NCBI GenBank assembly: GCA_018389105.1
Contig: JACATO010002142.1
Span: 248,001-312,000, forward strand
Reading direction: 5' to 3'
Length of the DNA stretch: 64,000 nucleotides
Source: Nautilus pompilius
Taxonomy: Eukaryota > Mollusca > Cephalopoda > Nautilida > Nautilidae
Shown here: positions 18,301 through 52,050 of the stretch, in pieces
How positions within the stretch are numbered: the stretch's first letter is position 1
Layout: each line of letters opens with the position of its first letter
Program-made: the position numbers and the translations under genes
Notes under the pieces: generated by a model
Told to the model about the DNA's origin: nothing
Database searches by the model: none
The model's input: the letters and a program-made list of their open reading frames with translations, nothing else

Positions 18301-20373
18301 AGTTAGTTTCAAACTTAAAGAGGGGGAAGGGTGTATGGAATCTGAAAAAAACTTCTAACCAGCAATATTTCAATGTCTCTTCACTCTTAGAAGAACATGG
18401 TTAAAACTTGATTGCCAAAAATGTGCTATTTTACCACACAATCTAAACACCACAACTGCAATAATATTTGCAAAATTAAAAAATCAGAAAGAAAACTGTG
18501 CCCCTTATTTATAATTGGCTCCAGGGTGTGAGCTTTTATACACTGCATTGTGGAAATACTTTCCTTAATTATCAACACCCCTTGGCATGGACACAGATGT
18601 GGATACCACTGGAGAACTGGTCCTTTGGCATGATCTTCCTCTTGAAGATGATGTATGGCAGGACCTTCTCGTGGCATTTGTCTTTATGGTGATGGTCTTT
18701 GACCACTGTGCTGTTGTAGGGATGGCTGAATGTCATGGGCCTCTGGTCAGCATTCCCTATGTGACTCAGGATTAGTCATGTTGTTTTCTCAGTTTTATGA
18801 TGAACTGTTGGTACCTCAACAGCTGATCTTCGTAATCATCAGGTAGCTTCTGGGCAATGGTGGTCAGCTGGCATAAGCTTATTTGGATGCAGGACATGAA
18901 GTGGGCACACCATTTCTGAGATGCCTTAAAGTCAGGCAAAGATTGAGTTTTTGAGTTTTGTAGACAGAAAAGTGTGTGCATGTGTATCTCTGTGATGGAA
19001 ACCTCAACACCCTGCATGCACCTTTCAGCAATGAAGAAAAGTACCTCCTTCTCAAGTTTGGGATAGGCTGCACCCTTGCCCTGATTAGCACATTTTGAAC
19101 ATGGCATGGCTTCAATCTTCTCCTGAGAACATTACCAGGACCTGATGTTGGCCTTGTTCACTCCAAACGTTCAAGATACAGCTCTGTTGCCATGTTCAAC
19201 TGCATAGCTGATCATTTGGAGTTTATCTGCAGCAGTGTAGCTCATATGTCATGTTGGCGGCATGGCTGTGAAAAGTATGTAGAAACAGGAACTGAATGAA
19301 GATAATCCCCATGCGGAGTTTACATATATGTTACCATAATACCTTGGTCACTATGCCATGGCGTAATAGGCAAGGTGGCCTAAACGAGGGTGGCATAGTA
19401 ATTGAAATGGAATTTTTTTACGAAAACCTTTAAACACCATGGCGTAATGAGCAAGGTTTTCATGGAAACCTGATTTGTGCATTCCAGTCACTACTGCAGC
19501 TGAGTGAGTGAATTTTTCGGATTTTTTTTGAAACTATTACGTACTTCCCATAAAATATCTCCACATTTAGTTTATTCTGGATGGCCCCACTAAAGGAAAG
19601 ACGTTGCAATTTCTCAGTTGATTTTAAGTTGAAGATGGCCATTTGTCTGTTATAACACTCATTCTCCTTCAGATTGCCTGAAATATGAGCTAAATATGCC
19701 TGCATATTATAATGGGAATTATACGTTTTTGGGGGATTTTACAGATCAAAATTGGGGTGCTTATTATATATGATAGTGTATAATACATGGCACTTTATGG
19801 TCGGTGCATATTGCTGTGTGATGTTCAATGGTTTTATAGTCATGCAAGACTAAGCTATACAGCATTTCCATGGGTTTTGGTGTCATTACATACTCTCACA
19901 TCAAAAGACCTGAAAGAAACCAAACAAAACAACATGGCACTCTCAGTAATACTTATTTCTTATTTGCAATGCATGGGATAATTTTTGCTTATCAAAATTT
20001 TTAGTGGTGCATGTTAAAAACTGCTTGGATTTCTTTGTTCCCTTATTTCTAATAAGCAACAAGAAAGGAAAAAATCTCATTAACTGAAATCTGCCAGTAC
20101 AGCACAACAAATGGAACAAACTTATCAGCCAGTACCTACATGTTTTGGTCTAGCAAGAAGTGGAAAGTTAATGAAGTGCTCTTATAATTTTTAGATCAAA
20201 CTGTGCTCACAAGTGGAGAACCTGAGTGTCTGAGGCTTAAGCCACAAAGGGAGGAGGAGATTTACCCAGTCTGTTGTGAAAGGAGCACCATTAGACATAA
20301 GAGACCGGACTTCATCTGTATCTCCCCGTTTGGCTGCATCGAGAAGTCTCTTACCCAGTTCAACCAGTGACAT
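7445..20373 (-). CDS. GABPB1: GABPB: GA-binding protein subunit beta (complete, 11 coding exons)
   Basis: Joined minus-strand exons 20373-20266, 18235-18038, 17718-17620, 15656-15582, 14447-14228, 13792-13709, 12699-12580, 9790-9663, 9067-8953, 8367-8264 and 7615-7445 give 1422 nt, 473 aa plus stop. All introns are GT-AG and phases join without a break. GABPB has no ETS domain; its ankyrin repeats bind the ETS protein GABPA and the C-terminal leucine zipper makes the alpha2-beta2 tetramer that activates ribosomal and nuclear-encoded mitochondrial genes (family knowledge). Visible here are ankyrin repeats at about residues 5-160, a T/S-rich activation region with the conserved [14 protein letters not shown] and KVITIVT blocks, a basic AKKSR patch near 390, and a coiled coil from about 425 to 465. 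Vertebrate GABPB1 is about 395 aa; the extra length is in the middle. Vertebrates have two paralogues, so the symbol stands for the family. Confidence 0.95.
8264..8367 (-). CDS. GABPB1: GABPB coding exon 10 (basic patch)
   Basis: Residues 383-417 with [11 protein letters not shown], equivalent to the EEPPAKRQC region of vertebrates, a likely nuclear-localisation patch. 104 nt, donor CAT|GTAAGT. Confidence 0.93.
8953..9067 (-). CDS. GABPB1: GABPB coding exon 9
   Basis: Residues 345-382, beginning [12 protein letters not shown], which matches the conserved QQVITIVT block of vertebrate GABPB. 115 nt, donor ACAG|GTAAAT. Confidence 0.93.
9663..9790 (-). CDS. GABPB1: GABPB coding exon 8
   Basis: Residues 302-344, including [12 protein letters not shown] and an acidic stretch. 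128 nt, phase 1 in and 0 out, donor CAG|GTAGGC. Confidence 0.9.
9873..11660 (-). mobile_element. Tigger-type (pogo superfamily) transposon, decayed
   Basis: Lies in the GABPB intron between exons 7 and 8, same strand. The transposase can be followed from an initiator near 11653 ([11 protein letters not shown]) through a helix-turn-helix remnant ([15 protein letters not shown]), the CENP-B-like domain ([19 protein letters not shown]), a broken DDE region with a degenerate LQPMDQG-type block, and a C-terminal tail with [19 protein letters not shown], ending near 10035. Several stops and frameshifts interrupt it. A CAGGGTTCCC terminus preceded by TA at 9871 looks like one inverted-repeat end; I could not place the other end. 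Plus-strand open frames here are shadows. Confidence 0.8.
12580..12699 (-). CDS. GABPB1: GABPB coding exon 7
   Basis: Residues 262-301, with [13 protein letters not shown] and a serine-rich tail. No clear vertebrate counterpart that I recall, so it may account for part of the extra length. The donor is ACAG|GTCAGC, with an unusual C at +3, but the phase fits exon 8 exactly. Confidence 0.85.
12845..12926. repeat. 41-bp tandem duplication, two units
   Basis: Two adjacent 41-bp units (12845-12885 and 12886-12926), both starting TGATCAATG and ending GTGTAGCAACAGAC. They differ at five positions, all transitions. In the intron upstream of GABPB exon 7. Confidence 0.9.
13709..13792 (-). CDS. GABPB1: GABPB coding exon 6 (conserved activation motif)
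   Basis: Residues 234-261 including [18 protein letters not shown], nearly the vertebrate sequence in the activation region. 84 nt, phase 1 in and 1 out. Donor CAAA|GTAAGA. Confidence 0.95.
14228..14447 (-). CDS. GABPB1: GABPB coding exon 5 (T/S/P-rich linker)
   Basis: Residues 161 to 233 plus one base. Strongly threonine-rich ([14 protein letters not shown]) and followed by [12 protein letters not shown]. Low-complexity activation or linker segment, poorly conserved in the family. Acceptor TTTGTAG, donor CCAG|GTAAGA. Confidence 0.9.
15331..15363. repeat. (TGA)11 microsatellite
   Basis: Eleven uninterrupted TGA units in a GABPB intron. Confidence 0.95.
15582..15656 (-). CDS. GABPB1: GABPB coding exon 4 (last ankyrin half-repeat)
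   Basis: Residues 136-160, [20 protein letters not shown], matching the capping repeat (TAFDISIDNGNEDLAEILQ type in vertebrates). 75 nt, donor CAG|GTGAGC. Confidence 0.95.
17620..17718 (-). CDS. GABPB1: GABPB coding exon 3 (ankyrin repeat)
   Basis: Residues 103-135, one full ankyrin repeat with an [12 protein letters not shown] core. 99 nt, phase 0 at both ends, donor AAG|GTGAGT. Confidence 0.95.
18038..18235 (-). CDS. GABPB1: GABPB coding exon 2 (ankyrin repeats)
   Basis: Residues 37-102: two ankyrin repeats with [11 protein letters not shown] and [11 protein letters not shown] cores. The [20 protein letters not shown] block is nearly identical to the vertebrate protein. Acceptor GATTTAG, donor ATG|GTATGT. 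198 nt. Confidence 0.95.
18480..19785 (-). mobile_element. pogo/POGK-like transposon, decayed
   Basis: Lies in the intron between GABPB exons 1 and 2, same strand. From about 19260 down it reads an HTH remnant ([19 protein letters not shown], then a stop where the family has Arg, then [10 protein letters not shown]), a CENP-B/Tc5-type domain ([12 protein letters not shown]), the family block [16 protein letters not shown], then a shortened DDE region with IGNADQRP and [20 protein letters not shown]. Much of the catalytic core is deleted. The upstream part to about 19785 includes an AATTGGGGTGCTTATTATA stretch typical of the ends of this group. The insertion is dead. Confidence 0.75.
20266..20373 (-). 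CDS. GABPB1: GABPB coding exon 1
   Basis: Residues 1-36, starting [17 protein letters not shown] and ending APFTTDW, almost as in vertebrate GABPB. Donor TGG|GTAAAT. The start is fixed by family similarity, and a 26-base UTR remnant and splice acceptor lie just upstream. Confidence 0.95.
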
Positions 20374-24790: not shown

Positions 24791-25475
24791 ACTAACTAAC
24801 CATACAACGCTTGAATTGAATAAGTCGAGCTTGTATTCATCCGCGCAGAACAGAGCCCTTAAACGTCTTCCATACCGCATTCGAACTACAGATATCTGTT
24901 TTATTTCAATTTCTGCACCAAAAAATTCCTATGTTTCACTACGCCCCATCTCTTTTGAGCGCCGTTTCGACAAGGAATGAACTACATCCAGAAGCGTTTC
25001 TACACCGTTGGACGGCGGGTATGACGCGGTCGTGATCTCGCGAGGTGCTGCGAGTCTGTGACGTAGGGTCAGTCGTCGTCGTCGTCGTCGAGGCCGAGGC
25101 CGGCGATGCCGTATTTGGAACGGCTATGGATTTTGAATGCTTGTTTATGCGTGCTGCCATGCGAACGTGGACAGCGGAAAGGCGTGTGTTTGAAGCGTTC
25201 TTGGGCGAGGATTTTGAAAAGGGACCGAGCGGAGGATCTGTTGCCGGACGTGTGACCCGTCAGTCGGCGGGAGAGTGCAGATGCTGACGTTTTTTAAAAG
25301 CCCTTTGTAGCTGTGTAAACACGTGCGTTGGATTTCGGTGCAAGGCAGCGAGCATCAGCAGTTCGATCGTAGTGATAACTGGCTGCCGGCTACAGGCTGG
25401 CGTAGTGCAGCTTCAAAGCGGGGGTCCCTGTTGCGGAATGCCGACTTGCTAGCCGACGCACCGCCGAGTAGTGCG
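24791..25475. promoter_or_regulatory. TLNRD1: upstream region / 5' UTR of TLNRD1
   Basis: CpG-containing sequence between the two head-to-head genes. It holds a (GTC)n run near 25072-25091, a half-CRE TGACGTAG near 25058, a TCTCGCGAG element at 25036 and a CACGTG at 25320. No TATA-anchored start is obvious. The whole likely acts as a dispersed bidirectional promoter. Confidence 0.5.
25036..25045. promoter_or_regulatory. TCTCGCGAG (BANP-type) element
   Basis: TCTCGCGAGG matches the TCTCGCGAGA palindrome at nine of ten positions. In mammals that element is bound by BANP at CpG-island promoters. Confidence 0.5.
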
Positions 25476-25490
25476 ATGAGGAGGTTATGA
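25476..25490 (+). promoter_or_regulatory. uORF overlapping the TLNRD1 start codon
   Basis: ATG AGG AGG TTA TGA: four codons and a stop. The stop overlaps the main ATG in an ATGA arrangement (main ATG at 25487), so main-frame translation would need leaky scanning or termination-reinitiation. Confidence 0.6.
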
Positions 25491-26267
25491 GCGCTGATAA
25501 TGCACGCACAGTGGTTGTTGCTTGCGAACTAAGCCACATCAAGATGCAGGGGGTGGCCGATCTCCTGCTCCTGTCCTGCGATCGCCGGCCCGTCTTCCTG
25601 AGGTGCAGCGAACCGTTCTGCCGGTGCCGCGAGATCGTCCTGGACAAGACCAAGGCGCTGTTCGTGCTGACGCAGAACGTGGCGACGCAGATCCACACGC
25701 TGACCGCCAAGTGGCCGGAGGTGTGCGACGACGTGCAGGCCCTGGCCGACCTGGTCGTGGAGCTGGTCGAGTACTGCAGCCACGCCGCCTACCTGGTGGC
25801 CATCAGCTACGACGGCAGCACGCCGGCCATCCCGGGTCTGGTGGAGCGGTACCGGGCGAGCCACGCCTGCCTGGAGGTCAGGCTCGCCTGCACCCGGCTG
25901 AAGAAGGCCAAGGCCGAAGAGCTCAGCCCGCACGCGCTGGTGCAGATCTGCACGTCGCTGTCCAAGAACCTGGCGGTTCTCGCGGACATCTGCAAGTACG
26001 CCAGCGAGAAAACGGAAGAGCAGAGCGACCAGGACCAGTTCAAGCTGTGCCTGAAGAGCCTGACGGCCACCGCCAGCTGCCTCATCTCGAGCATCAAAAC
26101 TTTCAAAAACAAGCCGACGCCGGTCAACCAGGGCCGGTGCGTGGCCTTCTGCGAGCCCGTCGTGGCCTCCGCCAACGCGCTCGTCAACTTTGCCATAGAG
26201 AAGGAATTCATCGGCGTCACCGCTGTCTTATCAGCCGAGGCCAAGGAAGCCCAGACTGCAATCCTCG
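25487..26267 (+). CDS. TLNRD1: TLNRD1 coding exon 1
   Basis: Codons 1-260 plus one base. Very GC-rich compared with exon 2 and the surrounding DNA. It includes the start chosen here (MSADNARTVVV); a second in-frame Met at codon 20 precedes the conserved QGVADLLLLS. Confidence 0.92.
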
Positions 26268-27098
26268 GTAAGTCCTTCGATTTGGCTCCGCGCTAGCTAT
26301 TGTTATTACTTTTATCTTCGACTTCCATTTGAGGGGTTGCTATGGAAACCGATTTTGTTTGCCCCTGCGGCCTTGTGTTTCGATTTTGACTGCCAACTCG
26401 GCCAGGGTTGGATTGGTGACGAAGGGGATTGTATAGTATTGTAGAGGGGGGAGGGGCAGAAAATCCGGGGAAGATGAGAGCCTGTGAATGAATGGAATAT
26501 AGTTAAAGTTCATTAGTAAGGAAGAACGGGGTTTTAGGGAGGGGAAAACCAGAAAAACAAAACGAAAGAAGGCAAAACGAGAAGCTCTCTTGAGACAACC
26601 AGCCGACACTGAGCTCTAGAAGCGATAGAGTTTGAGATCTTCTCTCTCTCTCTCTCGAGTACTGACGTCATCTCTCACAGGTACTGACGTCATACCTCCC
26701 TCTATTGACGTCATCACTCTCTCTCCATCTCTCCCTCTATCTCTCTCTCCCCTCGCTCCCCTATCTCTCTCCCCCCTCCATCTCTCTCCCTTCCCCTCCC
26801 CTCTCTCCCTCTCCCTCTATCTCTCTCTCTCTCCCACCCCTCTCTCTCTCTCTCTCCTCTCTCTCCCTCCCCCCTCTCCCTCTTCTCTCTCTCTCCCCTC
26901 CTCTCTCTGTCTCCCTCATCTCTCAACCCTCTCTCTCTCCATTCTCCCTCTCTCTATCTCCCTCTCTCTCCTCCCTATCCCTCTCTCTCCCCCTCTCCCC
27001 CTCTATCTCTCTCTCTCCCTCTCTCTCTCTCTCTCTCCCCCCCCCTCTCTCTCTCTCTCTCCCTCTCCTCTCTCTGTCCCCCTCTCTCTCTCTCTCTC

Positions 27099-27135
<37 letters not shown>

Positions 27136-48553: not shown

Positions 48554-48675
48554 ATGGCGCATACATACAGCAGAGTGACACTGGCTTATCAGGATATGCG
48601 GGACATACCTGCAGAAGTGAATGAAAAATACAGTGATTGGTTGGATGAATTGGATCTTAGTTATAATTGTATAAC
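48554..48675 (+). CDS. LRMDA: LRMDA coding exon 1
   Basis: Residues 1-40 plus two bases: [15 protein letters not shown], then [17 protein letters not shown]. The exon ends ATAAC| before ATATCCTT. Confidence 0.75.
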
Positions 48676-51600
48676 ATATCCTTTTTGGTATATATGCTAC
48701 CACCTGTGTGTGTGTGTTTCGAAAGGTTGAGATGAAGGAGAAAATGAGAACAAGAAAAGAATGAAAATCTACAAAAAGTAGTAGACGTTCACTTTGGGTC
48801 TTTCTCCATTACTTTATTACTAATAACAGAACTAATATTCCAAAAAGTAAAAAAAAAAATATATATATATTTGAGGGGATGCCTTGGTGGTGTAGTGGGC
48901 TAAAGCATTTGTCACAAGTTGCTTCAAAATTAAGTAACAAACAGGTCGTCTTCTCAAGCCACTTTCTCTGAACCCTGATTATGGTGACTGGGAAAGGCTG
49001 CTGAAACATAGGTCTATTGGCTAATTCTGTTCTAGTAAATTGATGATAAATTTATGAACCAATTCCCTACTTAGCGAAATTATTTTTAAAAAATGAAAGG
49101 AGAGAGGAAGCATGTGAAAAACAATAGGAATGGCATAAAAGGGTTAAAGTGAGAAAAAGGATACAAGAGAAGTTTGAGAAAAGATGGCAGTGTTTGAGAG
49201 AGAGAGAGGACAAGGAAATGCTGTGAGACTAAAGGTGGAAGAGAGTGAAATGGGAAAACTGAGAAAAGTTGAGAAGAGGCGATTTGATTTTCAGTTTATT
49301 TCTCAAGTATTGCTGGTCTTTTGTCTTCTTTTTTTTCCTTAATTGGGAAGAAATGATTTGCGATTTCTCACAAATTTCACAAATCTGTCTACACTGATTT
49401 TGGACCACAACAGCATCCAGTCACACGCAAAGATGCCAGTCATGCCAACTCTGCACACACTCTGGTTGAACCACAACAAGATCACCAACTTAGGTATGTG
49501 CAAAACGGTGTGTCTTGTCATGACTGAATGGCTTATCTGCGGCAATTTTATAGGGAAACATTTTCAAAAAAACCAAGAGGTGACTATGCAAGCTTTTAGG
49601 GCAGAATCAGAGTCACGATTGCCCAAATAAACTGTTTGTGTGCCCCAAAGCAGCAGTTTGTTTCCCATAATATTTCCCCATTCTCAGTGCCTAGTTAAAG
49701 AAACGTTTAGTCATTTAAAAAATAATTTAAAAATTAAGATTAACAAAAGTCAAATAAAAGTATCTGCTTTTCAAAAACTTGTTAACTGCTAATGCTCATA
49801 TATCCTCATCGGAAATTACCAACCCCCTACCCTAAAATCAACAAAAAATCAGCAGAGCAACAAAACTTTTAATTTCCAGTTCAATGATGAATGTAACCAA
49901 CACAGATAACCAATTTGTCCACCGTTATGGCTGAATATAACCAGCATGAAAAATCCTAGCATTTATCAGTTAACTTGTAACCAAAGTTGCAGAATTGTAA
50001 CTTATCAATTTTCAGTGATGGACAGAAACAATGTGAAAAAAGCTGTAACTTGTCGACTATCAGTGAAACAAATGCAAAAGATAGGGAACTTTTTTGAAAA
50101 CTGACCTGACGGAAATATCATGGCGTATCATAGGATATGGTTTTGGGTCTACTATTGCTTGTGATTAATATAAATAAGAGTGCAGTAGATGTCAACATTA
50201 AAACGTTTGTAGATGATACTGAAATTTAATGCTATAACTAAAACTATCCAAACATAAACATCATTCTATAGGTGACACTGGATTGTTAGATGTCCAGGAA
50301 AGGATGTAGCAGTAAATGTTAATTACAATCTCAAATGTGAAGAGATAACCTGATGAAAGTAACAGGGGAAGATTGCTGAAACAGATTCTCTAATTAGTTC
50401 TTCTAACAAAGGTGGGTGGATTATGCTCCAACCATCTAGTTTCTGAAGGTAACAGATCACCAATAACCTTCCGCTACCATCAGTGCATTTCAGCTGCAAA
50501 TAGAATGTTGAGTAAATAAATGGAGTATTTTGGTTCATCCATGTCTTGAATTTTTTTGTGAAGGCATGAATTTCTTATTTTGGAAAAGACATGGATTTGC
50601 TTGAGTTTTGAGGCTATAAGCTAAATGATTTTTAAATATTAGATCTGTCAAATCTGAATTTTAGAAGATAGACTTAATATAGGTTTTCAAAATACTTAGG
50701 ATTTGCACATGTGGACAATGGCACTTTTTTCAGTACAAGGAGAGATAATCCCCAAAATAGCTAAGATTTTGGCATGTAAATTAAGTAGCAAATGTAGTTA
50801 AATGCTGATCATTTATATTGATGGCCATTTCTGATCCCTGAAGCCATGATGGCTTCTTGCTTCCTTGTAAGTACTAAACAGTAGGTGGTTTGAACGTCAG
50901 CCATTGGAGATGAATAACAAATTGTCAGCACTATTTTAATGCAAGCCAAATATATTCTATAGAAATAAGAAAGCTATGATGTAATCTAAATTTTATAGGA
51001 TCAGATGCTAAAAAAAAAAATATGCCTGAAGCAAACACTGAAGAAAATTTTTAATTTAAATATTTGAAAGTTAACTAAGCTGCCATATTTGTGTAAAGTG
51101 CAGTTTGATTTGGAATTCTCTGCAAAACTGATGTCAGATCACTGTGTTTATTTTCTTACAGGTGTTTTTATAACTCGCATTTCTAAATGCTGTCCGAGGC
51201 TAAAGCATTTAAGTATGATGAACAATGTGGCAGCTCCGAGTTATTTCAATGGCGGAACATATCAACAGTATCTAGATTACAGGTAAGCCTCGGCTTATCT
51301 CACGTCACATTTAAGAATTTTGATCAGTCACTTTAACGTTGATTTTATATAGATGGGACCCGTAACAGGGCTTGACTAGGCCCTCACCAATCCCCACCCC
51401 TGGAACATGGTTGTTTGGTTCAGTAAGCAGGTGAATAAGCTAATGTGGTATTTGATACTAAACACTTTGAAGAAACCGAACTTCTTTATCCGTGTTTGTG
51501 TTGTTGTTTTGAAAACATTACAAGAATATGCGGAGTTTGGCATTGCTATTTTCTAACAGGCAGTATGTTATCAGTCAAATTCCCAGTCTACAAGTATTGG

Positions 51601-52050
51601 ATGACACAGCCATCAACATGGAGGAAAGGGCAGAGGCTGAGCGAATCTATGAGAAATATCTCATTTATGGAACAACAGGACTAGGTAACAATGTTTTTAT
51701 TTAACTATTCAAAACGGAAGTCATCAAGAATGCCTTCAACTCTATCCCAGCTTCTAGCTTTCATCACTGGACACAGTTAATCCACCCCCACCCCCCCCCA
51801 TCCCCCACCTCCCTATCTTGCCATTTTTACAACTAGTTTAAGCCAGTTGAATGGATCAGAGTTAGTGAACTTCAGCAAGAAAATAATAGCATCACATTGT
51901 GTATTATTTGTGTTGAACCTTTGATGCAATCACTTGCTGGTAGCATCTCTTTTTTTTGTTTCAGTTAAGCCAGTCAAGCGAGAAACTTCAACTTCATTAG
52001 GAAGGAAGGAGCACTATGACAAAAACAAAAAAGGAACTGCAATGCACTGA
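48554..52050 (+). CDS. LRMDA: LRMDA-like leucine-rich repeat protein (C10orf11 family)
   Basis: Exons 48554-48675, 49351-49493, 51162-51282, 51560-51684 and 51965-52050 sum to 597 nt, 198 aa, the length of the human protein. LRR cores are [35 protein letters not shown] and [13 protein letters not shown], then the LRRCT-like [14 protein letters not shown] and [13 protein letters not shown]. This order and the tail match human LRMDA (HTLTLNKNRITDL, YLSLLGNVACP, KLPNLKFLD, REEA, VVKPK). No signal peptide or membrane segment. In humans loss of LRMDA causes oculocutaneous albinism type 7. The start is the first ATG after an in-frame stop at 48536-48538. The intron after exon 1 has U12-type signals; the others are GT-AG. 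Confidence 0.8.
48676..49350 (+). other. LRMDA: U12-type (AT-AG) intron of LRMDA
   Basis: It begins ATATCCTTT, the canonical minor-spliceosome donor, and has TTCCTTAAT at 49335-49343, the U12 branch consensus, 7-8 nt before AAG|. The reading frame and LRR spacing (23 residues) fit only this junction. GT donors at 48670 or 48687 would shift the frame or create a stop. Confidence 0.75.
48880..49033. mobile_element. SINE-like element with shared tail module
   Basis: Inside the U12 intron. GGTGGTGTAGTGGGCTAAAGC resembles a tRNA A-box head, and the end carries the CTGATTATGG...CTGAAACATAGG module also found at 50349 and 60147. No B box is clear, so the SINE label is tentative. Confidence 0.4.
49351..49493 (+). 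CDS. LRMDA: LRMDA coding exon 2
   Basis: Residues 41-88: [20 protein letters not shown] through HNKITNL, two LRRs. Donor TTAG|GTATGT. Confidence 0.85.
50349..50400 (+). repeat. dispersed module copy
   Basis: CCTGATGAAAGTAACAGGGG then GATTGCTGAAACA: a third copy of the module seen at 48973 and 60147. Confidence 0.4.
50823..50905. repeat. dispersed repeat, copy B
   Basis: Partner of 3530-3600. This copy has a short inverted pair around GAAGCCATGATGGCTTC. Confidence 0.45.
51162..51282 (+). CDS. LRMDA: LRMDA coding exon 3
   Basis: Residues 89-128 plus two bases: [20 protein letters not shown], then [11 protein letters not shown]. Acceptor TTTTCTTACAG, donor TACAG|GTAAGC. Confidence 0.85.
51560..51684 (+). 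CDS. LRMDA: LRMDA coding exon 4
   Basis: Residues 129-170: [20 protein letters not shown], then the acidic [13 protein letters not shown]. Acceptor TTCTAACAG, donor CTAG|GTAACA. Confidence 0.85.
51965..52050 (+). CDS. LRMDA: LRMDA coding exon 5
   Basis: Residues 171-198, [20 protein letters not shown], then a lysine-rich end and TGA. Human LRMDA has VVKPK at the same position. Confidence 0.85.

Follow-up and report, generated by a model that had tools for sequence, protein, structure and literature searches.

A probable AT-AA minor intron in an LRMDA-related leucine-rich repeat gene

Human A-type minor introns have been recorded with AC, AA, AG and AT ends, and depletion of CENATAC affected 92% of A-type introns (both from excerpts of PMC8280824). 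According to excerpts of PMC10639083, non-canonical termini make up about 3.8% of all conserved minor introns in the animals examined there, with AT-AA the commonest among them. The two spliceosomal classes can also meet at one codon position: 87 clusters in U12DB hold U12/U2 intron pairs of this kind, between orthologues (excerpts of PMC2831892). We describe here the first intron of a leucine-rich repeat (LRR) gene that resembles the animal AT-AA minor introns in the AT 5' end of its ATATCCTTT motif, in a TTCCTTRAY branch-site sequence, in a spacing of 11–12 nucleotides from there to the 3' end and in a last base other than C. No difference from them is evident, the intron being a single instance with a predicted 3' end. 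As an AT-AA intron, it is most likely a known and fairly ordinary variant of the minor class.

The gene and the signals of its first intron

The window, by which we mean the whole 64,000-nucleotide stretch of DNA analysed, lies on contig C2040 of a 728-Mb genome (G000). A gene with five exons spans 48554-52050 on the + strand and has the following features.

48554..48675, +: coding exon 1, from ATG; 122 nt, open frame, phase 2 end (after ATA AC)
48676..48684, +: U12-type 5' splice site ATATCCTTT, exact RTATCCTTT
48676..49353, +: intron 1, predicted minor (U12-type, A-type), phase 2; 678 nt as AT-AA, the preferred form
48676-49350, +: intron 1, alternative AT-AG form; 675 nt
49335..49343, +: branch-site sequence TTCCTTAAT, exact TTCCTTRAY; candidate branch A 49341 or 49342
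49354..49493 (49351-49493 with the AG end), +: coding exon 2, frame kept
51162..51282, +: coding exon 3, frame kept; flanking introns GT-AG
51560..51684, +: coding exon 4, frame kept; flanking introns GT-AG
51965..52050, +: coding exon 5, including the stop codon TGA

The predicted protein has 197 amino acids with the AT-AA form of intron 1 and 198 with the AT-AG form. Three of the four introns have GT-AG termini, and a U2-type donor, TAG/GTATGT, lies directly 3' of exon 2. Within intron 1, the stretch 48971-49013 has a copy on contig C2086 (91% identical) and the stretch 48776-48837 a copy on contig C643 (82%); both are possibly fragments of dispersed repeats. Elsewhere in the window, a GC-rich stretch on the + strand holds an open frame of 274 codons from stop to stop (25472-26296), which matches talin rod domain-containing protein 1 (6xz4, E 6.6e-53) and Pfam Talin_IBS2B and looks like a TLNRD1 gene that is at least largely intronless. 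Shortly 3' of it lies an imperfect CT dinucleotide array of about 197 copies with 72% matches (26717-27099).

Both U12-type signals of intron 1 were found where a first-pass annotation of this DNA had placed them, ATATCCTTT beginning at 48676 and TTCCTTAAT at 49335-49343, and both agree exactly with the U12 consensus patterns, for which we used textbook values. Exact RTATCCTTT has a single + strand occurrence in the window (at 48676) and two on the - strand; for exact TTCCTTRAY there are two on the + strand (at 18561 and 49335) and one on the - strand. A first-order Markov model of the same composition gave per-base expectations of 1.55e-5 and 3.8e-5, respectively. Because each of these rates is low, chance placement of both signals at the needed sites is very unlikely, with a probability of roughly 1e-7 by our own rough estimate, which allows for some 30 positions for the donor and 8 for the branch site. 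Across the genome, ATATCCTTT is present in 6207 + 6219 copies on the two strands (12,426), and the same motif read backwards in 5713 + 5776 copies (11,489). Since ATATCCTTT alone is this common, the case rests on where it stands, at a coding junction, in combination with the branch site. There is a pyrimidine run immediately upstream of the 49335 branch site and none from that site to the 3' end; minor introns usually have no distinct polypyrimidine tract. The sequence thus characterized is very likely that of an A-type minor-spliceosome intron, and the earlier assignment of intron 1 to the U12 type stands, both signals being exact matches that occur rarely in the window.

A paralogue on contig C951 and the identity of the gene

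When compared with its own genome at E <= 0.01, the window protein matched its own exons only (five matches). A related gene on contig C951 was found with a C-terminal stretch of human LRMDA as the query, to which its best stretch is identical at 23 of 27 residues; within 120 kb of C951 sequence, the window protein matches three exons of this gene (E ~1e-4). For the preceding C951 exon, the one that ends at 192223 was selected by eye from the 15 places listed, and the joined exons read ...LDLTFNKL(AG/A)SLEGLESFSYLEELILDD. Exon 1 of the window gene aligns with the C951 exon QGIHKLPSLLIKDYAAITKRLDLTFNKL. At the codon aligned with window intron 1, also in phase 2, the C951 gene has a GT-AG intron of the U2 type (C951:192224-195848), and no exact U12 signals were found at the ends of that intron. 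The pair resembles the U12/U2 pairs of U12DB in that the codon aligned with the minor intron is interrupted, in phase 2, by a GT-AG intron of the U2 type, and differs in that the two genes are paralogues within one genome. One codon position thus appears to be minor-class in the window gene and major-class in the C951 gene.

The next C951 intron (C951:195976-196626, loci L020 and L028) is a textbook U12-type GT-AG intron in phase 0, with the signals GTATCCTTA and TTCCTTAAC, the second A of the latter 12 nucleotides before the end. It is like window intron 1 in being a minor intron of a homologous LRR gene, but is G-type, in phase 0 and at another codon, whereas the window intron is A-type and in phase 2. 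From the signals of these two introns, two genes of the family would each carry a minor intron, at different codons.

LRR_4 and LRR_9 scored above their cut-offs in the window protein, which places an N-terminal LRR domain there. The C-terminus of human LRMDA, IRDDQL, binds Retriever (excerpts of PMC12491506). The predicted window product ends in KKGTAMH and, in the five-exon model, is without this Retriever-binding tail. The C951 gene ends in NSEGNRYIKNMDL followed by a stop, which appears to match the human LRMDA tail. Because an LRMDA-type tail seems to be present there and is absent from the predicted window product, the C951 gene is probably the likelier LRMDA orthologue of the two. The window gene had been annotated as LRMDA-like; it does encode an LRMDA-type LRR protein, but is probably an LRMDA-related gene and not LRMDA itself. 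Titles and the opening parts of abstracts yielded no literature linking LRMDA/C10orf11 with minor or U12 introns.

The 3' end of intron 1

With the donor fixed at 48675/48676 and the frame of exon 2 fixed, candidate ends fall at every third base, and the in-frame AN ends 8–28 nucleotides past the branch A residues are just AG 49350 and AA 49353. As the two are one codon apart, frame cannot tell them apart. The first-pass annotation had chosen AG 49350, and joining 48675 to 49351 does keep the frame as it said (ATA AC/A AAT GAT). It had also described this as the only junction that is open, but AA 49353 is open from the same donor, as are 9 of 697 GT-AG pairs. AG 49350 is the first AG beyond the branch site; it lies 8–9 nucleotides from the branch A, compared with 11–12 for AA 49353. 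In the excerpts of a review (PMC3584512), the optimum for this distance is given as 11–13 nucleotides, a range that includes AA 49353 and excludes AG 49350, and AT-AG termini are described as apparently disfavoured, in agreement with the rarity that the annotation had attributed to them.

The encoded repeat gives a second measure. With the AA junction the first LRR has 22 residues and with the AG junction 23, the extra residue being Asn; the 22-residue form matches the LRR consensus, and the exact repeat spacing formerly ascribed to 49350 fits 49353 better. Pfam scores were higher for the AT-AA than for the AT-AG protein with LRR_4 (55.0 vs 51.3 bits), LRR_9 (44.2 vs 39.9) and LRR_8 (23.7 vs 20.3), while LRR_Zer-1, at 21.0 bits and below its cut-off, was listed with the AT-AG protein only. 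Seven of the ten PDB chains that scored best for the AG protein scored higher with the AA protein, chain 5il7 rising from 53.8 to 78.4, and three scored slightly lower (3jb9, 36.1 to 33.8; 9y6s, 34.3 to 33.6; 9fqr_H3, 33.8 to 32.7). Eight SHOC-2 chains listed for the AG protein were absent from the listing for the AA protein, which covered 60 of its 61 chains.

Generic LRR models prefer 22 residues whatever the truth of the junction, and a direct relative was therefore needed. Alignment to the C951 gene, a single paralogue and not an orthologue, scored 245 for the AA form with no gap at the junction and 235 for the AG form with a one-residue gap there (253 vs 246 with a milder gap cost). Because AA 49353 has the better branch distance, the 22-residue LRR and the gapless paralogue junction, we prefer an AT-AA intron that ends at 49353, to which we give a probability of about three in four; the AT-AG end annotated before is probably three bases off.

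A minor intron that ends at AG 49350, and so leaves a 23-residue first LRR with its extra Asn, is an unlikely but credible alternative. Its end is in frame and is the first AG after the branch site, the SHOC-2 chains are listed with its product, and human AT-AG minor introns exist (excerpts of PMC8280824 and PMC4176328), two U12-like AT-AG cases being recorded in the same sources as edited to GT-AG. Against it stand the short branch distance, the disfavoured terminus (PMC3584512, in excerpt), the lower scores with all three Pfam models and the gap that its product requires against the paralogue. It is also conceivable, though unlikely, that AAG/AAA/ acts as a tandem acceptor with both ends used, which are in frame and 3 nucleotides apart; this reading overlaps those with a single end and would give two proteins, one of which has an additional Asn in its first LRR. 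Similarly unlikely is the joint proposal that such isoforms, with and without Asn, go together with a codon position that is minor-class here and major-class in the C951 gene, the latter having its minor intron elsewhere.

A U2-type GT-AG intron that starts from a different donor or follows a different first exon is highly improbable. The pyrimidine run ahead of 49335 would suit it, and open junctions exist among the 697 pairs formed by GT in 48600-48799 and AG ends in 49000-49429; the earlier statement that GT choices give a stop or a shifted frame is thus right in substance, save for nine pairs that keep the frame and score poorly. On a U2 splice-site matrix of textbook values, the highest-scoring open pair reaches 0.4 bits in total, compared with 11.5, 12.6 and 6.9 bits for the three GT-AG introns of the same gene, and no AG in 49000-49429 had an acceptor score above 0. 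All nine open pairs add residues to the first LRR or remove them from it, and the alignment of exon 1 to the C951 paralogue reaches the junction itself. Least probable of all is an AT-AC intron ending at AC 49371 or 49380, both in frame and with the classic terminus, as these lie 29–30 and 38–39 nucleotides from the branch A, cost 6 or 9 residues that the AA form retains, with gaps of that size against the C951 paralogue, and lower LRR_4 to 39.5 bits in the 49371 form, which the scan covered. If the base at 49350 or 49353 is in error, the true terminus may instead be an AC.

Minor-spliceosome machinery and proposed splicing

Besides the signals, the frames and the spacing in a homologue, the machinery genes of the minor spliceosome were observed in the genome. 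There is one match above cut-off each for U6atac (107.3 bits), U11 (83.3), U12 (121.5) and U4atac (60.8), and CCDC84/CENATAC has three exon matches; none of these five had a match in 14 control genomes. The CCTTTT of the 5' splice site can form six consecutive Watson-Crick pairs with the genome's own U11, whereas the U6atac pairing has two registers with nearly equal scores (7.5 and 7.0) and carries no weight for or against the assignment. The letters of the U12 locus contain TTTTCCTTACTCAT, whose complement, ATGAGTAAGGAAAA, corresponds to the branch-binding stretch.

We infer from these features that intron 1 is spliced as follows. U11, and later U6atac, would pair with ATATCCTTT, while U12 would pair with TTCCTTAAT and bulge one of its two A residues as the branch point. 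The 3' cut would then fall 11–12 nucleotides past the branch point, after AA 49353, and the mature protein would carry a canonical 22-residue LRR across the junction. By analogy with human A-type introns, removal of intron 1 would be expected to depend on CENATAC.

The locus is a further probable case of a non-canonical minor intron in an animal genome, and indicates that frame and an AG alone can misplace such an intron by three bases. Together, the window gene and the C951 gene offer a compact natural case in which a homologous intron position is apparently served by different spliceosomes.
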